Below, in pieces: positions 8,983-18,182 of a stretch of DNA of 64,000 nucleotides. The position numbers and the translations under genes are program-made. How positions within the stretch are numbered: the stretch's first letter is position 1; each line of letters starts with the position of its first letter. Under the pieces are notes generated by a model. That model was not told the DNA's origin. It worked only from the letters and a program-made list of their open reading frames with translations, and did not search any database. The stretch is from an uncultured Pseudomonadales bacterium (GTDB taxonomy: Bacteria > Pseudomonadota > Gammaproteobacteria > Pseudomonadales > Azotimanducaceae). The DNA is taken from the NCBI GenBank assembly GCA_937921865.1, contig CAKZWF010000050.1, positions 1 through 64,000 on the forward strand, given 5' to 3'.

Positions 8983-9909
8983 ATGTCACAAGCGCCATAC
9001 AAACAGGCCGAAAATTACCGTTACGCGCCGAAACAGGTTGATGAAATCATCATCCGCCAGTTCACTTTCGAATTTCCCGACGACCTCAACCCCTATTGGA
9101 TTCCCGGCCATGTGGTTCGCTCCCACCTGTTCAATGGATTCTCGCTGACCATGCCTTATCTGGAACCCTTCCTGGTCAAAACCATGCGTGAAGCATCCGC
9201 TGCAATACAGGTTCCCGAGCTGCAGGAAGACATCCGGCAGTTCAACGGCCAGGAGGCCAGCCATTACAAGTGTCACCGGCGCCTGAACGAAATAGTGAAA
9301 ACTAACGGTTATGAAGAATTAGCCGAGGTTGAAGATCGCATGCAGCGCTCCTATAAGAAACTAGGCGGCAGAAGCCTGCGCACCAGACTTGCGTACAGCG
9401 CTGGTTTTGAATGCATGACGAATGGATTCACCCACTGGCTCATTACCAAACGTAGAAAACTGTTTGCTCACGCGGATCCACACATCTCGTCTTTCTGGTT
9501 GATGCATATGGTAGAAGAGACGGAACACAAAACCGTCGCTTTTGATACCTACATGGCCCATTCAGGGCAGTATCTGCCGCGCGCCATGGGAGTTTTCCAT
9601 GGATCTTTTCATGTTCTGGGTTATGGCTTCATCGGCATGTTTGCAGCCTTGAGAAAAGATGCTGTGCTGCAGCAGCCCAGAGTAGTGGCGCAAGTGATCC
9701 GGGAAACATGCTCGCTGATCTGGAATGTCGGTCCGTATTTATTAAGGGCTCTGTCGCCTCGGCACAATCCGCGTGGAGAAGTGGACCCTCAATGGATGCA
9801 GGACTGGATTGCAGGTCACGCCTCCCTGCCTGCAGGCGCAATGATTCCTCTTGTCGACACAAACACGCTCGACATGCCCGTACCGTTTAATCGCGCCCCG
9901 GTCACCTGA
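8983..9909 (+). CDS. PF10118-like 'metal-dependent hydrolase' family protein; sequence has ferritin-like di-iron motifs
   Basis: 308 aa; QFTFEFPDDLNPYWIPGHVVRSHLFNGFSL N-term; two ExxH motifs (QEASHYK and EETEHK) with intervening Glu (GFECMTNGFTHW). Confidence 0.75.
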   Translation: MSQAPYKQAENYRYAPKQVDEIIIRQFTFEFPDDLNPYWIPGHVVRSHLFNGFSLTMPYLEPFLVKTMREASAAIQVPELQEDIRQFNGQEASHYKCHRRLNEIVKTNGYEELAEVEDRMQRSYKKLGGRSLRTRLAYSAGFECMTNGFTHWLITKRRKLFAHADPHISSFWLMHMVEETEHKTVAFDTYMAHSGQYLPRAMGVFHGSFHVLGYGFIGMFAALRKDAVLQQPRVVAQVIRETCSLIWNVGPYLLRALSPRHNPRGEVDPQWMQDWIAGHASLPAGAMIPLVDTNTLDMPVPFNRAPVT

Positions 9910-9916
9910 CCGTCTC

Positions 9917-10447
9917 ATGAGTCAGCAAGCAACAAATAGAAACTTTGAAATTCAGAGGATAAGAACAGTGGAACGTCTGCAACGAGTAATGCTTATCAAT
10001 GGTTTTATGGTCATTCTCTTCGCCATGCTGGCTGGATTCATGCTGATGTTCTCTCTGCTGGGAGGCCTGGAGCTATGGCCCGAGTACATAGTGGCTATTC
10101 CGGTTTATGGCACGAGTGAAGGATGGGTCAGAGCACATTCCGGCGGAGCTATGAACGGATTGCTGGTGGTGGCCGTCGGTTTGTCATTGCCAAAAATGGC
10201 ATTGAGCCGATTCCAGCAGCGTCTGACGGCCTATGGTTTTATTTACGTGGCCTGGTCGTTCACCATCTTTTACTGGTTCGGCAATGCTGCAGGGAACCGC
10301 GCACTGACGTTTGGTGACAATCCGCTGGGTTCATCCGACCTGTTTGGTGTTATCGGATTCCTGCCGGCACTGCCTGCGGTGTTTCTGGTGGTATTGCTGT
10401 TGGGATTGGCGACGAAGGGAATCTGGTCATCTGCAGATGGTTCATGA
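9917..10447 (+). CDS. Styrene-oxide-isomerase (StyC)-like four-TM membrane protein
   Basis: EGWVRAHSGGAMNGLLVVAVGLSLP and NRALTFGDNPLGSSDLFGVIGF resemble StyC segments EGWARAHSGPALNGMMVIAVAF and NRGLTFGPNQFGPGDIFSFL as recalled; start taken at ATG 9917 inside ORF 9851..10447. Confidence 0.72.
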   Translation: MSQQATNRNFEIQRIRTVERLQRVMLINGFMVILFAMLAGFMLMFSLLGGLELWPEYIVAIPVYGTSEGWVRAHSGGAMNGLLVVAVGLSLPKMALSRFQQRLTAYGFIYVAWSFTIFYWFGNAAGNRALTFGDNPLGSSDLFGVIGFLPALPAVFLVVLLLGLATKGIWSSADGS

Positions 10448-10459
10448 TGACTGTGACAA

Positions 10460-12586
10460 TCACTGACGCGCGGCTGCAGCGCGCAGCATCTCCGGCGTAA
10501 AAGGCATTGCCCTGACGCGAGTCCCGGATGCCGCGAAGATCGCATTCGCTATCGCTGCAGGCGTCGGCCCGGTGCTGGCTTCTCCCACCCCCAGAGCTCT
10601 GTCACGTGACGGTACAAGGTGGGTTTCGATTTCCGGTACCTCACTGAATCGGAGTATCGGATAAGACAGCCAGTCCCGGGAAGTCACACCCGATTCATCC
10701 CAGGACACTGCCTCTTTCAACGCCCAGCTAGCAGCCTGGACAAAACCACCTTCGAGCTGGTTGATCAGACCATCGGGGTCGATCACCAGACCCGCATCAG
10801 CCGCGATTGTGGCTCTGCGCAGCTGTACCTGGGCATCGTCGCTGACCACCAGATCAACCGCCACCGCACACCAGGTCTGACGATTTTTGTAGCGGGCAAG
10901 GGCAATCCCCCGACCTACCCCAGCCTCATCCGATGGCGCAGCAAGCTGATCGCGTAACAACTCCAGCACTTTCCGCGCGCGGGTGTCCTGCAGGTGGCGC
11001 AGACGGAACTCGAAGACGTCTGCACCTGCAAGCTGTGCCAGCTCATCCATAAAAGACTCGATGGCAAAGACGTTGGCAAAAGCACCAAGGCTGCGCAACG
11101 ACGACGTCCGCAGCGGGCTGCTGGCGACAAAATGTTTGATCAGCTGCTGCTGTGGAAATTCGTAGATCGGCTGCAGATTCCGGTGAATGCCAACTTCTTT
11201 GAACATCGCAGGTTGTCTGGGCGCAGGCGGTGTCGCCTGCTCTCGCCACCAGGCGGACTGCAGATTAGTGTATCCCGGCGACGGTCGCGGCCGGCCGGCA
11301 TGAGAAAAGCTGAAACTCTCATGGCGCCAGTCGATGACTCGGCCGTCCTTATCGAGACCGGCCTTCATATCAATCACCGCGGCCGGCGCGTAGGGTTCAA
11401 AACCGTGTTCGTCAGCTCGAGTCCACTTCACACTTACCGGATCAGGCTCAGCTGCCATCGCCAGCAGCGCGGCATCCAGCGCCACATCGTCTGCGCCATT
11501 GTGGCCGTAGCAGCCCGCTCCTTCCGCGTGAATCACATCCACCTGATCTTTGGGTAATCCCAGCACGTCAGCCAGCGCGCGCTTGAGCAGCTCCACGCCC
11601 TGACTGTGCGAGTAAACGGTAAGGATGCCGTTGGCATACTGCGCCACTGCCGCAGATGGACCCATCGATGCATGCATCTGGTAGGGCCGATAGTAGGTGG
11701 CTTCGAGGGAGACGGTCACAGCAACAGACGACTGGTATGCCGGAACAGGCGCATCGACAGGGGTGCCGTCTACAACCGGCAGACTTCGCGTCACCTTGTT
11801 GCGCAGATAGTCGGGTATTTCTCCAGGCATCACGGTAAGCGGCGCCTGCGACCATCGGCATCGCAACGCCAGCCGTTCAGCGGCAGCAACGGCAATTTCT
11901 TCGCGCGCTGCCAGCACCCCGAGAAAGCTGCCGTCTCTGACAATCTCCACGCCGGGCATCTCCAGGGTATCCGGGCACTCGAGCAACCGGGCATCTGGCT
12001 GTGGCGGTTTAACGAGCCGTCCATGTCGCAGATGGTGAAACAGCATGTCATGCACAAAGGCGACATCACCGTTGAGCTTGGCAGGCAGATCAACCCGGCT
12101 TACCGCGTGGCCGACAATACGGTAGTGACGCGGATCTTTGACTGCGGGCAACGAGACAATGTCCGTTTCAAATCGCATCCCTGCCTGCAGGGACCAGTAA
12201 TCGATCTGCTCGTTGGACTCGGTGGAGCTGATCATGCCGTCATCCACAGTTAGCGTGCCGGGTGCCACATCGAGAAACTCAGCCGCTTTCGCCAGCAGTA
12301 TTTCACGCGCCGCGGCGCTGGCAACCCGCACCGCACTGCCGCTGTCCTCCACCGACATGCTGCCAGCGGTGATCTGTTCATTGGGTGTGATTCGGGTATC
12401 CGCAGTCTGCACATGAATGCGCTCAACGACCACATCGAGCTCTTCCGCTGCGATCATCGCAATGGCGGTCATGATGCCCTGGCCAATTTCCACCTTGCCG
12501 GTTTTAACGGTAATGGATCCATCAATGTTGATGTGCAGCCAGCGATCAAGTCCTGGTGCGCGCTCGATAGCGCCGGGCAGGTTCAT
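10460..12586 (-). CDS. Xanthine dehydrogenase family molybdopterin-binding subunit (isoquinoline 1-oxidoreductase beta / aldehyde oxidase type)
   Basis: KTGKVEIGQGIMTAIAMIAAEELDV, GVGEASTGPTPAAIANAIFAASGTRVRAMPFTPE; start overlaps stop of the 2Fe-2S subunit (ATGA). Confidence 0.92.
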   Translation of the reverse strand: MNLPGAIERAPGLDRWLHINIDGSITVKTGKVEIGQGIMTAIAMIAAEELDVVVERIHVQTADTRITPNEQITAGSMSVEDSGSAVRVASAAAREILLAKAAEFLDVAPGTLTVDDGMISSTESNEQIDYWSLQAGMRFETDIVSLPAVKDPRHYRIVGHAVSRVDLPAKLNGDVAFVHDMLFHHLRHGRLVKPPQPDARLLECPDTLEMPGVEIVRDGSFLGVLAAREEIAVAAAERLALRCRWSQAPLTVMPGEIPDYLRNKVTRSLPVVDGTPVDAPVPAYQSSVAVTVSLEATYYRPYQMHASMGPSAAVAQYANGILTVYSHSQGVELLKRALADVLGLPKDQVDVIHAEGAGCYGHNGADDVALDAALLAMAAEPDPVSVKWTRADEHGFEPYAPAAVIDMKAGLDKDGRVIDWRHESFSFSHAGRPRPSPGYTNLQSAWWREQATPPAPRQPAMFKEVGIHRNLQPIYEFPQQQLIKHFVASSPLRTSSLRSLGAFANVFAIESFMDELAQLAGADVFEFRLRHLQDTRARKVLELLRDQLAAPSDEAGVGRGIALARYKNRQTWCAVAVDLVVSDDAQVQLRRATIAADAGLVIDPDGLINQLEGGFVQAASWALKEAVSWDESGVTSRDWLSYPILRFSEVPEIETHLVPSRDRALGVGEASTGPTPAAIANAIFAASGTRVRAMPFTPEMLRAAAARQ

Positions 12587-13062
12587 GACGCCCCACGCAG
12601 CCGGGCTGCCGCGCTCTCCACTGCACGAATCATCCTCGGTTGGGCGCCACACCGACACAGATGCCCGTCCAGCGCCTGGCAGATATCCTGCCGGGATGGC
12701 TTAGGATTCTTCGCCAGCAGCGCTTTAGTCCGCATGACGATGCCGCTGAGACAGAAGCCGCATTGTGCCGCGTTGTGGTTGAGGAATGCCTGCTGAATCG
12801 GGTGCAGCTCGCCGGATTCAGCGGCCAGCCCTTCCAGGGTTTCGATGGCTTTACCCTGAAGGTCACCGATCCGGGTCGTGCAGGAATAGATCGGCTCACC
12901 GTCCGCCAGCACCACGCAGGCGCCACACTGTTCCAGACCACATCCAAGTTTCGCGCCGTGACAGTCAAGATCGTTTCGCAATGCGAATATCAGAGGCACC
13001 TCTTCACTGAGCTCCAGCGAGTGAGGCGAACCATTGACAGTAAGCCTGATGGACATCTTCAT
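12583..13062 (-). CDS. (2Fe-2S)-binding subunit of molybdenum hydroxylase
   Basis: 159 aa; HGAKLGCGLEQCGACVVLADG and NAAQCGFCLSGIVM...GHLCRCG cluster motifs. Confidence 0.95.
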   Translation of the reverse strand: MKMSIRLTVNGSPHSLELSEEVPLIFALRNDLDCHGAKLGCGLEQCGACVVLADGEPIYSCTTRIGDLQGKAIETLEGLAAESGELHPIQQAFLNHNAAQCGFCLSGIVMRTKALLAKNPKPSRQDICQALDGHLCRCGAQPRMIRAVESAAARLRGAS

Positions 13063-13155
13063 CCCCGTGTCATCCTGCCGAGCCCATAGCTTGGCCGATT
13101 TCGAGACTGCAGGCTACTGCGCCGCAGCGGGCCAGAGCAGTCTCAGACAGCAGAG

Positions 13156-13192
13156 CTATGGGGTCAGAGTAAAGGGGATCGCCCGAACGAAG
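13156..13192 (-). repeat. GGGGTCAGAGTAAAG dispersed repeat, half copy
   Basis: ctatggggtcagagtaaaggggatcgcccgaacgaagg. Confidence 0.85.
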
Positions 13193-13461
13193 GAACCGGA
13201 AAGAATCACATCACCCTCTCTAATCAACATTCCAAACTGATGCAGGGTGTTTGCCAGCCAGGCAACGGCGTTGACTGGATTTGCCAGTACCGCAGTGGAT
13301 GATCCGGTTTCTACAATTTGCCCGTTAATCGACAGCGACATCGTCCATTCACCCGTCTGCTCGGCATGCCATAAGTCCGCAGCAACTTCGGCGACCTGTT
13401 CTTTGTTCAGCACTCGTTCTGCCTCACTGCTTTTTACTGTCCTGTTCTGCCCACCAGTCAC
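13156..13461 (-). pseudogene. Remnant of 2-oxo-hept-3-ene-1,7-dioate / 2-oxopent-4-enoate hydratase (HpaH/MhpD family)
   Basis: N-terminal-like AEVAADLWHAEQTGEW joined directly to C-terminal-like ETGSSTAVLANPVNAVAWLANTL...LREGDVILSGSF; middle missing and 3' end runs into repeat (FTLTP stop). Confidence 0.75.
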
Positions 13462-14284
13462 CGCCCAGAGCTACCCGTCGAACGGCGTCAGTATCGGTCG
13501 GCTGATGCCCCACCTGATGCTGCGGCTCCGGAATATCCTGAACAGTGTTAGTCAGTCTGCCCAGACCGGTTACTTCTACTTCCACAACGTCTCCGGGCTG
13601 CATCGGGCGTGAATTTGCCGGCGTACCAGTCAGAATGACGTCGCCGGGCATCAGCGTGATATGACGACAGAGATCCGCAAGCTGATAATCGATGCCAAAC
13701 GTCATCTCGCCGACCTCGCCTTGCTGCACAACTTCACCGTTGATGTAGGTTCGCAATGTGGAGTTGCGAACATCCACACCACGCACAATGCCCGGACCAA
13801 TCGGACAGAATCCATCCATACCCTTGACCCGGGTCATGCCGCCAGCGTCGGTATCCCGGTAATCCTGAGCACCGACATCGTTGGCGGGCGCAAAACCCGC
13901 AATGTAGTTCCAGACGTCTTCGATAGCGACGTTCTTCATTGGCCGCCCGACAATGGCAGCAATCTCGCCTTCATAGTTGAGGTACTGACAATTGGCTGGC
14001 CGATTCAGCATGCCGCGATGGCTGTTGAGCGCAGTGACCGGCTTCATGAAATAGGTAGGCGTAACCAGATCAGGGGCTCGAAACTCGATGCGCCGCGACT
14101 CGTAGTTCAAGTGAATACAGATGATCTTGGTCGGGTTGCACGGAGCCAGGTAGACGGCATCGGACTCTGGTATCTCCCGGCCGTCGGGCAGCAGCAGATT
14201 ATCACCAGCAACACTGGTCCATACCGGTCTGCCTTCACACAGGATCTGCCGTTGTTCGAGACGCTCACCCTCAAATACGTTCAT
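13424..14284 (-). CDS. Fumarylacetoacetate hydrolase family protein (HpaG-like)
   Basis: 286 aa; YEGEIAAIVGRPMKNV, PTYFMKPVTAL, MTFGIDYQLADLCRHITLMPGDVILTGTPANSRPMQPGD. Confidence 0.92.
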   Translation of the reverse strand: MNVFEGERLEQRQILCEGRPVWTSVAGDNLLLPDGREIPESDAVYLAPCNPTKIICIHLNYESRRIEFRAPDLVTPTYFMKPVTALNSHRGMLNRPANCQYLNYEGEIAAIVGRPMKNVAIEDVWNYIAGFAPANDVGAQDYRDTDAGGMTRVKGMDGFCPIGPGIVRGVDVRNSTLRTYINGEVVQQGEVGEMTFGIDYQLADLCRHITLMPGDVILTGTPANSRPMQPGDVVEVEVTGLGRLTNTVQDIPEPQHQVGHQPTDTDAVRRVALGGDWWAEQDSKKQ

Positions 14285-14307
14285 CGTTGTTCCTCTTTTG
14301 TTGTTAC

Positions 14308-15804
14308 TCAGCGTGCCGGGGCAGATCCGCGCGAAATCAGCGGGAATGACGCGAATCGCGTTTCAGTGAAAAATTCCCGGCTGAGCCCACCGCCTTCGCG
14401 ACCAAGCCCGCTCATTTTCATGCCGCCAAACGGCTGCCGCAGGTCTCGATCAAAACCGGAATTGATCCAGATCATTCCGGTCTGGAGTCGATGGCTCACG
14501 TAGTGCGCTGTCGATTGCGATTCGGTCCAGATATACCCGGCAAGGCCGTAGGTTGAGTCGTTTGCGATTGCTAACGCATGCTCCACATCTTCAAACGGAA
14601 TGATCGTCGCGACAGGACCGAAAATTTCCTCCTGGCAGACTCGCGCCGTCGGCTCAACGTCAACGATAGCGGTCGGTTCAACGAAGTAGCCTTTCTCCAG
14701 ACCATCGGGCCGTTTGCCGCCAAACAGAATCCTGCCTTCGGTGCGGGCAAGATCGAGGTAACCGGTCACGCGCTCATACTGCGCTTTCGAGACCAGCGGT
14801 CCGAGCCGGGTGCCACGCGTCATCGGATCTCCGGGTTGCCACGCGCTCGCTGCCTTCTGAAACTGTTCCAAGAAGTCATCGTAAATGGCCTTCTGCACCA
14901 GAATTCGGGATCCGGCGACACAGACCTGACCGCTGTTCATGAAGATGCCCATCGCCGCAGCGGGGACAGCTTTCTTGAGGTCAGCATCAGCAAAGATGAT
15001 GTTGGCGGATTTGCCACCGAGTTCGAACGAGGTTCGCTTCAGCGATTGAGACGCGCGGCCGGCGATATCTTTTGCCGTGGCGGGTGAGCCGGTAAACGAA
15101 ACGCCAATCACGTCTTCGTGCTCGACCAGCGGAATCCCTGCTTCCTTGCCATAGCCCAGGACGGTGTTATAGACACCTTTCGGCATGCCGGCTTCTGCAA
15201 AAATCTCGCACAGCACAGCAATGGAAAGCGAGGACAACTCCGACGGTTTATGCACGGCAGAGTTACCGTACGCAAGGCACGGCGCCATCTTCCAGGTCGA
15301 CAGCATGATCGGACCGTTCCAGGGCGTGATCAGACCAAATACCCCGGCGGCATCACTCATCGTGTAGGTCAGCAGCGTATCGTCGCGGTTGAAGGCGTGG
15401 TCGCCTGCCTGCTCCTGCTCTTCGGCAAAAAACCGCAGATTCCATGCCGACCGCGCCATGATCGGATGCGGACCAGAGAACTCAGGGCCCAACGGCCCAC
15501 CCATTTCCAGGGTCTGCAACCGAATCATCTCGGCAGATCTTGCTTCTATGAGGTCCGCAGCTTTGAACAGAACCTTGCGCCGGAACGAAGGATTGGCACG
15601 AGACCATTCACCCCCAGTAAAGGCTTCTTTTGCTGCGGCAACGGCAGCAGCTATGTCGTCGGCATCACCCCGAGCTACCTGGGTGGTGACTGCTTCCGTG
15701 GCAGGATTGATCGCAGCAAAGGTCCTCCCGGAGCGGGAAGATACAAACTCTCCATCGATATAGTGTTTACCGATCGACGAGCTCAATTCTAACGATCCGC
15801 TCAT
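14308..15804 (-). CDS. Aldehyde dehydrogenase
   Basis: 498 aa; FELGGKSANIIFADAD, NSGQVCVAGSRILV active-site Cys, EEIFGPVATIIPF. Confidence 0.96.
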   Translation of the reverse strand: MSGSLELSSSIGKHYIDGEFVSSRSGRTFAAINPATEAVTTQVARGDADDIAAAVAAAKEAFTGGEWSRANPSFRRKVLFKAADLIEARSAEMIRLQTLEMGGPLGPEFSGPHPIMARSAWNLRFFAEEQEQAGDHAFNRDDTLLTYTMSDAAGVFGLITPWNGPIMLSTWKMAPCLAYGNSAVHKPSELSSLSIAVLCEIFAEAGMPKGVYNTVLGYGKEAGIPLVEHEDVIGVSFTGSPATAKDIAGRASQSLKRTSFELGGKSANIIFADADLKKAVPAAAMGIFMNSGQVCVAGSRILVQKAIYDDFLEQFQKAASAWQPGDPMTRGTRLGPLVSKAQYERVTGYLDLARTEGRILFGGKRPDGLEKGYFVEPTAIVDVEPTARVCQEEIFGPVATIIPFEDVEHALAIANDSTYGLAGYIWTESQSTAHYVSHRLQTGMIWINSGFDRDLRQPFGGMKMSGLGREGGGLSREFFTETRFASFPLISRGSAPAR

Positions 15805-16691
15805 TCGGACGCTCCACCCCGCTGGAAATCATGCCCGTAGGTATCCCGCACAAAATACTCACTCTGGTGGGTCGCAGGCTTACCACCATAGCCAATCTCA
15901 ATCTGCCATCCGGAAGGACCTACCAGATAGAACGAAAACATATGGTCATTGGCATGCTTGCCCAGCTCTATTGCGATCGGATATTTGCTTTGTTTAGCCA
16001 GTTCGTAGGTCGTGAACACATCGTCAAGATTGTCGACTTCCAGCATCAGGTGGTTGATGTGTTTACCTTCAGCCGGCGGCACCCCGAATGCGAACGTGTG
16101 ATCGCGCTCGTTACAGTGCATAAACAGGATATCGAGCGTGGCGTCTGGACCCATGGGCACCTTGTATTCGATCCCGCCCCGCATACCGAGAAGTTTGTAG
16201 AAATCATAGATCGGCTCAAGACCCTGGTGGCTGAGGATCATGTGGCCAACCCCGCCTGCATCGGTGAGATAACGACCATGCATTCGTCGGCCAGGATAGA
16301 ACGGCAGATGGGTGTCGATTCTGGGGCCATGAAAAATTTCCAGCGGATTGCCTGCAGGATCCTTGAGCAGCAGCACTTCCAGCACCCCCCGTTTGGCGCA
16401 AAGCGCCTGGTCTCCTACTTCAAACGGAATCTCGTTATCCGTAAGTGTTGCCTGCATTGCTTTGAATTCTTCAGCACCGGCGACCCGCAGGCCCGCGCCA
16501 ATCAGGTCATCCGCCGCACTTTCTTCCAGGAGGATGCGATGGTGCCAGTAGTCCATGCGCAGAGATGCGCTGCGGGCATCGCCAGGCTCTTCACAGACTT
16601 CAAGCGCCAGTATTTCCCTGGCAAATGTTTTCCATTCCTCAAGATCGGAAACCCCAAACCTCACGTATCCCAATTCGGTTACACAGGACAT
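15801..16691 (-). CDS. VOC-family extradiol (catechol 2,3-)dioxygenase
   Basis: 296 aa two-domain VOC protein; GVGHMILSH, INHLMLEVDNLDDV, GPSGWQIEIGYGGK typical of BphC/HsaC-type enzymes. Confidence 0.88.
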   Translation of the reverse strand: MSCVTELGYVRFGVSDLEEWKTFAREILALEVCEEPGDARSASLRMDYWHHRILLEESAADDLIGAGLRVAGAEEFKAMQATLTDNEIPFEVGDQALCAKRGVLEVLLLKDPAGNPLEIFHGPRIDTHLPFYPGRRMHGRYLTDAGGVGHMILSHQGLEPIYDFYKLLGMRGGIEYKVPMGPDATLDILFMHCNERDHTFAFGVPPAEGKHINHLMLEVDNLDDVFTTYELAKQSKYPIAIELGKHANDHMFSFYLVGPSGWQIEIGYGGKPATHQSEYFVRDTYGHDFQRGGASE

Positions 16692-16712
16692 TGTCTTCTC
16701 TCCCTATTGCCT

Positions 16713-18182
16713 TTATCGGCCCAGTTCGTATTTGCGCGTAATCTCATCTGTTGCTGCCCAGAACTCCGGCACGCTCTGCCACTCACGAGTTTGCTGCGCC
16801 ATCATGTGTGCCAGCGAATAGTTTCTCGCCGCTGACGCAAGATAAAATCGCTCGTAGAGTTCAACCCGTCCACCGAGCGCTGAACCCGCCATATCCCAAG
16901 CAGTGCGAAACAATCGCGCGCGGTCCTTTGCATCCGCGTCATCCGCACCACGCAGATAATGCGCAAGCAGAGGCTGCAGAGTTTCATCGTCGAAGTCAGC
17001 CTGCGCCGGTGTGGCGAGCAGGTTGTGTGACCCAATCTGCTTGAGAATATCGTTGGTGCGGACCATCCAACCCGGCATTGTCGGGCGCAACGCAATGAAA
17101 GGCCGCTCATCACATATCCAGGTGCCATCACCGTAGTCGAATGCGCCATCTTCTGCGGCTTTCAACGCACTTCGCGTCAACTCGCCGAAGGACCACAGCT
17201 CGCCCAGCATCTGCGTCGTTTCACTGCGCTGATTCTGACCGGTCACCTTGGCCATGCGCGATGCCAGCTCGTATGCGAACTCAAGTTTGGTGAGGGCCCG
17301 GATGACCGTCTGCTGCATGATGTTGCCGGTCCAGCCGCGCCTCATCACCGTGTTGAACACAGCCGGGTTGGCATCACAGAACACGCGGGATTTGGGAATT
17401 TCCACGTTATCAAAGATCATGAAAGCATCCTGCTCATCGAAGCGGCTGGAAAAAGGCGCATCGAAAACATTCCGGTCCACGGTGTAGTGATCCCTGCACA
17501 GGATTTTCAGCCCCTGGGCATTCATCGGCACGGAGAACGCCATGGCAATCTCCGGCTGATTCTCGGGAACGGGATGCGCAGGGTAAACCGCCAGCTCATC
17601 GGCGAAAGGTCCCAGGGTGGCGAGAATCCGGGCACCACTGACGATGATCGAGTCTGCCGTTTCCCCAACCTTGCGCAGCGCAAGCTCCTGGTTGATACCC
17701 TCATAATCAGGCACCCGTTTGTCGACGATGGGATGAACGATGGTGTGCGTGAGAGAAAGATCCTTCTCGGCAATTTCCTTTTGAAACGCCAGCAGGTTGT
17801 CGTGGCCTTCCTCGTTGCCTGCGGCCCGCCACAGGGTGGGCTGACCAGCGAAACCGGCAAAGGTGACGTTTACGTAATCCGGCGTGCGGCCAAGCATGCC
17901 GACGCTGTAGCCCGCCAGTTTCTGCAGACCCTGGCGCCGGCGCTCGAGGTCTTCCCGGCTACGCGGGATAAGATGGCTGACGCTGACGAGGTCTCCTTCT
18001 GAATTCTCCATCAGGCAGTCGTCGGCATAACGGTGCTGCCAGTCAAAGTACCCTGCCATACCGGCCAGCGAACCCTTGAAGCCGGGGTGACAGGCCACGT
18101 CAGTCACCGCCTCGCCGTTGACCCAAACAGATCGCTGGTCTTTCAGGCCCGCTAAATACTGCTCACCAGTTCGTGCCGCCAT
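16713..18182 (-). CDS. 4-hydroxyphenylacetate 3-monooxygenase (HpaB) family flavin-dependent hydroxylase
   Basis: 489 aa; MAARTGEQYLAGLKDQRSVWVNGE N-term, NEEGHDNLLAFQKEIAEKDLSLTHTIVHP, central CRDHYTVDRNVFDAPFSSRFDEQDAF. Confidence 0.93.
   Translation of the reverse strand: MAARTGEQYLAGLKDQRSVWVNGEAVTDVACHPGFKGSLAGMAGYFDWQHRYADDCLMENSEGDLVSVSHLIPRSREDLERRRQGLQKLAGYSVGMLGRTPDYVNVTFAGFAGQPTLWRAAGNEEGHDNLLAFQKEIAEKDLSLTHTIVHPIVDKRVPDYEGINQELALRKVGETADSIIVSGARILATLGPFADELAVYPAHPVPENQPEIAMAFSVPMNAQGLKILCRDHYTVDRNVFDAPFSSRFDEQDAFMIFDNVEIPKSRVFCDANPAVFNTVMRRGWTGNIMQQTVIRALTKLEFAYELASRMAKVTGQNQRSETTQMLGELWSFGELTRSALKAAEDGAFDYGDGTWICDERPFIALRPTMPGWMVRTNDILKQIGSHNLLATPAQADFDDETLQPLLAHYLRGADDADAKDRARLFRTAWDMAGSALGGRVELYERFYLASAARNYSLAHMMAQQTREWQSVPEFWAATDEITRKYELGR

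Follow-up and report, generated by a model that had tools for sequence, protein, structure and literature searches.

A PF10118 protein with a candidate dimetal site and a styrene oxide isomerase-like protein form a recurrent two-gene unit in bacteria

A stretch of 64,000 nucleotides from an uncultured bacterium of the Pseudomonadales (contig CAKZWF010000050.1; hereafter the window) contains two adjacent genes, the first encoding a protein of the Pfam family PF10118 ('Metal_hydrol'), a family without an assigned function, and the second a protein resembling styrene oxide isomerase (SOI). A reading made from the sequence alone proposed that the first protein may be a di-iron oxygenase and that the pair may turn an alkene into an epoxide and then into an aldehyde. 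The locus raises the question of whether the two genes act together, and by what chemistry. The features concerned are as follows.

8983..9909, plus strand: PF10118 ('Metal_hydrol') protein, 308 aa, first of the pair; probable ferritin-like di-iron (or Mn/Fe) oxygenase
9163..9165, plus strand: codon of E61, candidate metal ligand (YLEPFLVKTMREA); helix 44-72 in the model; invariant
9253..9264, plus strand: codons of E91xxH94, candidate metal ligands (QEASHYK); helix 78-107; invariant
9409..9411, plus strand: codon of E143, candidate metal ligand (GFECMTNGFTHW); helix 132-155; invariant
9505..9528, plus strand: codons of H175xxxE179xxH182, candidate ligands (EETEHK); helix 166-181 and its end; invariant
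9917..10447, plus strand: SOI-like membrane protein, 176 aa, second of the pair; predicted haem-b-binding four-helix protein
10136..10138, plus strand: codon of H74, corresponding to the haem axial ligand H58 of SOI; kept in 122 of 122 aligned SOI homologues
10271..10273, plus strand: codon of Y119, corresponding to the catalytic Y103 of SOI; retained in the alignment

The locus

The open reading frame at 8983-9909 matches PF10118 over nearly the full length of the profile (190.6 bits, E 5e-56; the Pfam gathering cut-off is 33.2 bits). This is the only Pfam family found for the protein; the AurF family is absent. The SOI-like gene probably starts at the ATG at 9917, 7 bp past the PF10118 stop, as the profile match and this ATG indicate; this start displaces the TTG at 9851 given in the list of open reading frames. 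The genome from which the window comes has one copy of each gene, both at 8983-10447.

The genes flanking the pair on either side lie on the opposite strand: an ABC transporter of oligopeptide type (identified by sequence) before it, and molybdenum hydroxylase and aromatic meta-cleavage-type genes after it. The latter cluster (10460-18182, minus strand) encodes the large and 2Fe-2S subunits of a molybdenum hydroxylase, an FAA hydrolase, an HpaE-like dehydrogenase, a BphC-like extradiol dioxygenase and an HpaB-like monooxygenase, and is likely a separate aromatic meta-cleavage pathway. A promoter scan upstream of 8983 found no promoter.

The PF10118 protein

The sequence-only reading had recognised an E / ExxH / E / ExxH pattern typical of a di-iron protein and not of a hydrolase. 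The motifs are present at the places given, and E61, E91xxH94, E143 and E179xxH182 are unchanged in a first set of 50 relatives. These six candidate ligands stand; the reading overlooked a seventh, H175, which lies four residues ahead of E179 and is likewise invariant in paired and unpaired PF10118 proteins. All seven residues (E61, E91, H94, E143, H175, E179 and H182) are unchanged in 87 SOI-paired and about 48-49 alignable unpaired PF10118 proteins. Structure prediction of 8983..9909, proposed as a check, gave a confident, all-helical AlphaFold2 model (47 homologues; pLDDT 93.7, pTM 0.91) in which E61, E91xxH94, E143 and E179xxH182 occupy four long helices that follow one another, the arrangement seen in ferritin-like di-iron proteins.

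A Foldseek search of the PDB with this model placed R2lox, RNR R2, CmlI, AurF and methane monooxygenase (sMMO) at the top, with E-values that are weak and not significant (best 0.16, TM about 0.45). R2lox is the nearest structural match (TM about 0.45, probability 0.97-0.99, about 12% identity, E above 0.1), and Pfam gives no match of the protein to R2lox at family level; CmlI and AurF matched with TM 0.38-0.43 and E 0.7-1.1. A PF10118 profile run against PDB sequences found no convincing relative, AurF and CmlI being absent at E-values up to 10. The ligand pattern, the helical model and the di-iron or Mn/Fe proteins at the top of the fold ranking together make it likely that the PF10118 protein is a dimetal-carboxylate (di-iron, possibly Mn/Fe) oxygenase.

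The iron ligands of AzoC, a relative of AurF, are also seven in number: E102, E137, H140, E198, H225, E229 and H232 (PMC6783550, PMC8840469). AurF, CmlI and AzoC carry their ligands in the same E / ExxH / E / HxxxExxH arrangement as PF10118, and AzoC also matches it in the H-x3-E-x2-H spacing, the overall spacing agreeing in part. The folds of AurF and CmlI may resemble the model to some extent, at a TM of only about 0.4. The three differ in that PF10118 has no detectable sequence relation to them and lacks an amine pathway context. Membership of PF10118 in the AurF or R2lox family is not claimed.

The SOI-like protein

The resemblance of the second gene product to SOI, noted in the earlier reading, holds at the level of sequence and predicted fold. 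The protein matches the solved SOI (PDB 8pnu) with an E-value of 4e-26, and its AlphaFold2 model (pLDDT 94.2) has 8pnu as its top and sole significant Foldseek match (E 1.2e-11, TM 0.70/0.79). It scores 125.2 bits against the NCBIfam StyC model, below the equivalog cut-off of 150 bits.

In SOI, H58/H57 is the axial haem ligand (PMC11374702, PMC12502698), and Y103, N99 and D95 are functional residues of the mechanism (PMC11374702). Of the four SOI residues that position the substrate (N64, D95, N99 and Y103), the window's protein retains N64 and Y103 in the alignment and has N99 replaced by F115 and D95 by V111. Its R128 corresponds to the arginine of SOI that contacts the haem propionate, and this arginine is kept in nearly all of the 122 homologues. 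The N99A variant of the Pseudomonas enzyme is inactive (PMC11374702), and D94A of the Rhodococcus enzyme retains activity (PMC12502698); thus, the change at N99 is serious and that at D95 is not. N99 is replaced by F in the window's clade and in about half of the SOI-like family, and D95 is confined to true StyC among the aligned homologues. The two largest paired clades have N64 and Y103, and one of these two also has N99. Smaller paired groups, including clades with GWLFTLPAIANA-type motifs, lack Y103 and are still paired with PF10118, so the shared function is perhaps not SOI chemistry in every clade.

Since it misses the StyC cut-off and has both N99 and D95 replaced, the window's protein is SOI-like and not StyC. 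The conserved ligand and fold suggest with high confidence that it is a haem protein; isomerase activity is somewhat more probable than not, and the altered pocket may fit another substrate.

Recurrence and architecture of the pair

A survey of genome neighbourhoods, put forward with the original proposal, found the pairing to be recurrent. Of the 207 genomes surveyed in the window's GTDB family, 57 have an SOI-like gene and 80 have PF10118; 55 of the 57 also encode PF10118 (Fisher p 1.7e-29, a value that ignores kinship). Fifty-two of the 65 SOI-like genes have a PF10118 gene no more than 1.5 kb away, where random placement predicts 0.08, and in 49 of 61 neighbourhoods (60 family loci plus the window) the two genes directly adjoin on the same strand. 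A scan of 84,980 species genomes yielded 80 further SOI-like loci, mainly in Pseudomonadales and other Gammaproteobacteria and in Rhodobiaceae and other Alphaproteobacteria, with a few in Myxococcota and Burkholderiales. The pair was present at 61 of 86 loci examined (the 80 from the scan and six others); some contigs of the scan had already appeared in the family survey, and the non-redundant total is 87 pairs. The SOI-like family occurs in only 4 of 398 genomes of a wider phylum sample, indicating that the pair is concentrated in certain lineages. Many of its carriers are marine and freshwater bacteria, and viral contigs yielded no relative.

The order of the two genes is PF10118 first in 80 of the 87 pairs; the seven with SOI first form one clade, in which the pairing is kept. 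In all 80 PF10118-first pairs no more than 100 bp (median 32) separate the PF10118 stop from the start of the SOI-like gene, and some of the genes overlap. No third gene recurs around the 87 pairs, and neither a conserved reductase nor an aldehyde dehydrogenase is part of the unit in them. An opposite-strand neighbour lies upstream in more than half of the pairs and downstream in about half, and repeated neighbours (sulfatase, PhyH, AMP-ligase, AraC, SDR) are limited to sub-clades. The pair is a stand-alone two-gene unit. The proposal that the nearby molybdenum aldehyde oxidase completes the oxidation is not upheld: the gene is on the opposite strand, and relatives of it lie near only 3-4 of 116 SOI-like loci. 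An apparent PF10118-SOI gene fusion at one locus (L119) was discarded because the long reading frame is an out-of-frame extension.

The linkage has persisted between SOI-like clades that are only about 30% identical. Distances within the PF10118 proteins and within the SOI-like proteins correlate with an r of 0.79, where permutations reached 0.12 at most; shared organismal descent contributes to this correlation. In the window's family, 13 of the 65 SOI-like genes are unpaired and PF10118 is frequently present without SOI. SOI-paired PF10118 proteins score above 300 bits and unpaired ones below 210 bits against a PF10118 profile, a gap that is partly circular because the profile was built mostly from paired sequences. 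The exceptions are four proteins in three genomes (G030, G045, G062), in which an orphan SOI-like gene is accompanied by a paired-type PF10118 protein encoded elsewhere in the genome. It is close to certain that the PF10118 and SOI-like genes co-operate. A mere sharing of neighbourhood, by hitch-hiking or common regulation of genes with separate roles, would account for the unpaired members of both families and is very improbable, as adjacency has outlasted deep divergence, a reversal of order and changing surroundings, and paired-type PF10118 proteins occur in the three genomes with orphan SOI-like genes.

Several individual loci deserve mention. Two of them (L049:7259-9189 and L139:4544-6483, the latter in the cultured marine gammaproteobacterium HTCC2143) have PF10118 followed by two tandem SOI-like genes, one with and one without Y103. 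Three alphaproteobacterial loci (L146, L148, L153) combine a PF10118 protein about 20% identical to that of the window with an SOI-like partner closer to the clade of the window, a possible partner exchange. A C-terminal PF10118 remnant (L013:1281-1400, residues 255-294, 60% identity) upstream of an SOI-like gene represents a decaying pair. The pair in a MAG titled Klebsiella pneumoniae (L158) groups with those of freshwater Gammaproteobacteria MAGs (such as L114 and L115), and the contig is probably mislabelled or mis-binned. Another PF10118 clade (L205, L210, L213, L214) lies in a recurrent run of AMP-ligase, PF10118, Cupin_7 and zinc alcohol dehydrogenase genes without SOI. In the window, 333-1769 encodes a sulfatase, and sulfatases of the same family are found close to the pair at about 10 other loci, most of which belong to the TGWANT clade.

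Other oxygenases upstream of SOI homologues

The plasmid-borne StyC genes are preceded by StyA and StyB. A third arrangement was found in Burkholderia sp. OK233, Paraburkholderia madseniana and P. elongata (L164-L166).

L164:3302-7608 (also L165 and L166): operon of StyD-like aldehyde dehydrogenase, AlkB-family monooxygenase, SOI homologue and Fer2/FAD/NAD reductase

The monooxygenase of this operon matches PDB 8f6t (E 4e-22), and its SOI homologue scores above the StyC cut-off and keeps N99. This AlkB-SOI combination of oxygenase and isomerase is apparently undescribed. Given StyA/StyB, the AlkB-type enzyme and PF10118 in the upstream position, three unrelated oxygenases precede SOI homologues. 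The order of oxygenase and then isomerase, on which the original proposal relied, gains from the Paraburkholderia case, where a di-iron enzyme of AlkB type stands before a related SOI and beside a StyD-like aldehyde dehydrogenase.

The StyAB-StyC-StyD systems of Pseudomonas VLB120 and Rhodococcus opacus 1CP resemble the pair in having an oxygenase gene directly upstream of the SOI homologue, and StyC has H58, N64, Y103, the propionate arginine and the fold in common with the window's protein. They differ in that their oxygenase is the flavoprotein StyA with its reductase StyB, in place of an unrelated di-iron-type PF10118 protein, and in that they include an aldehyde dehydrogenase; the window's isomerase-like protein, unlike StyC, falls under the StyC cut-off and lacks D95 and N99. 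The AlkB-SOI operon is like the pair in placing a di-iron-type oxygenase immediately before the SOI homologue. Its oxygenase, however, is of the integral membrane AlkB family and has its own reductase and StyD-like aldehyde dehydrogenase, and its SOI homologue keeps N99 and passes the cut-off, whereas the window's protein does neither.

In a tree of SOI homologues, StyC and the AlkB-paired genes form one group (SH-aLRT 88), with PF10118-paired clades on several sides of it. The tree has moderate support and long branches; with a root placed outside the StyC/AlkB-paired group, it makes the PF10118 pairing the older arrangement and the sty operon the younger. A search of the window's genome (about 90% complete; run without a positive control) found no StyA homologue.

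Proposed reaction and alternatives

The scheme that we prefer begins with the soluble PF10118 protein, in which a carboxylate/histidine di-iron (possibly Mn/Fe) centre of the AurF-like seven-ligand type would activate O2. The enzyme would transfer one oxygen atom to a lipophilic and probably unsaturated substrate, the simplest product being an epoxide. The SOI-like protein, embedded in the membrane and presumably forming a haem-b trimer as SOI does, would then bind the substrate oxygen through its ferric haem, acting as a Lewis acid, and promote rearrangement to an aldehyde or ketone, so that a reactive intermediate is cleared at the membrane. This scheme builds on the durable linkage of the two genes and, at the level of sequence and model, on the folds and ligand sets of both proteins; we infer the identity of the metal, the binding of haem, the epoxide as intermediate and the carbonyl as product. 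Counting against it are the replacement of N99, the loss of Y103 in some paired clades, the non-significant Foldseek E-values of PF10118, the lack of a conserved reductase, and the fact that AurF-type enzymes are mainly known as N-oxygenases and less for epoxidation. The full route from alkene through epoxide to carbonyl has an even chance of being correct.

The strongest competitor assigns all the chemistry (hydroxylation, desaturation or epoxidation) to PF10118 and makes the SOI-like protein its haem-b membrane anchor or electron donor. The unit has no conserved reductase, and the haem ligand is the sole functional residue present in every SOI homologue, N99 and in some clades Y103 having been lost. 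However, the SOI-like alignment lacks the further invariant histidine that a bis-His electron-transfer haem would need, most paired clades retain N64 and Y103, which bind the substrate, and the SOI homologue of the AlkB-type operon is not needed as a donor because a dedicated Fer2/FAD/NAD reductase stands beside it. An anchor or donor role is therefore unlikely.

Alternatively, PF10118 could N-oxygenate an amine to an oxime or nitroso compound, and the haem protein could act on this N-O compound like an aldoxime dehydratase or as another kind of Lewis-acid isomerase. The seven-ligand pattern is that of AurF, CmlI and AzoC, and the first two are among the Foldseek matches. The haem of SOI, moreover, binds the amine inhibitor benzylamine (PMC11374702). 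Against this, PF10118 shows no detectable sequence kinship to AurF or CmlI, its nearest fold is R2lox and not AurF, and those SOI relatives whose pathway context can be read belong to alkene/aldehyde operons, leaving the amine route improbable.

Equally doubtful is the reverse sequence, in which an epoxide formed by other means is turned into an aldehyde by the SOI-like protein, and PF10118 consumes this aldehyde as an aldehyde-deformylating or -oxidising di-iron enzyme. Aldehyde-deformylating oxygenases are also ferritin-like di-iron enzymes (PMC4286721), the pair has no aldehyde dehydrogenase of its own, and one clade has SOI ahead of PF10118. Yet the sty and AlkB-type operons place the oxygenase ahead of SOI and have an aldehyde dehydrogenase to deal with the product, and PF10118 is upstream in most pairs (80 versus 7).

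Implications

A search of literature outside subscription journals found no description of the PF10118-SOI pairing, and one for PF10118, COG3687 and UCP07580 returned a single passing mention, of PF10118. The alkene-epoxide-carbonyl scheme calls on chemistry of a known kind, to which the PF10118 oxygenase and the altered isomerase would be new additions. A wider interpretation is offered tentatively, as a possibility short of even likelihood: PF10118 may represent a novel class of soluble monooxygenases with a di-iron centre, its partnership with a haem Lewis-acid isomerase may be the ancestral context of the SOI family, from which styrene oxide isomerase would later have been recruited by partner swaps (from PF10118 to AlkB-type to StyAB), and the pair may be a general alkene-to-carbonyl module with a natural substrate other than styrene.

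If this is true, it would give a first pathway role to PF10118, a family whose name implies a hydrolase activity at odds with its ligands, and would reveal a second, possibly older use of the SOI fold. For biocatalysis it would open a compact path, of two genes and free of flavin monooxygenases, that leads from alkenes to anti-Markovnikov carbonyls. The evolution of SOI becomes testable as well, since the same oxygenase family is partnered both by clades that have N99 and Y103 and by clades that lack them.
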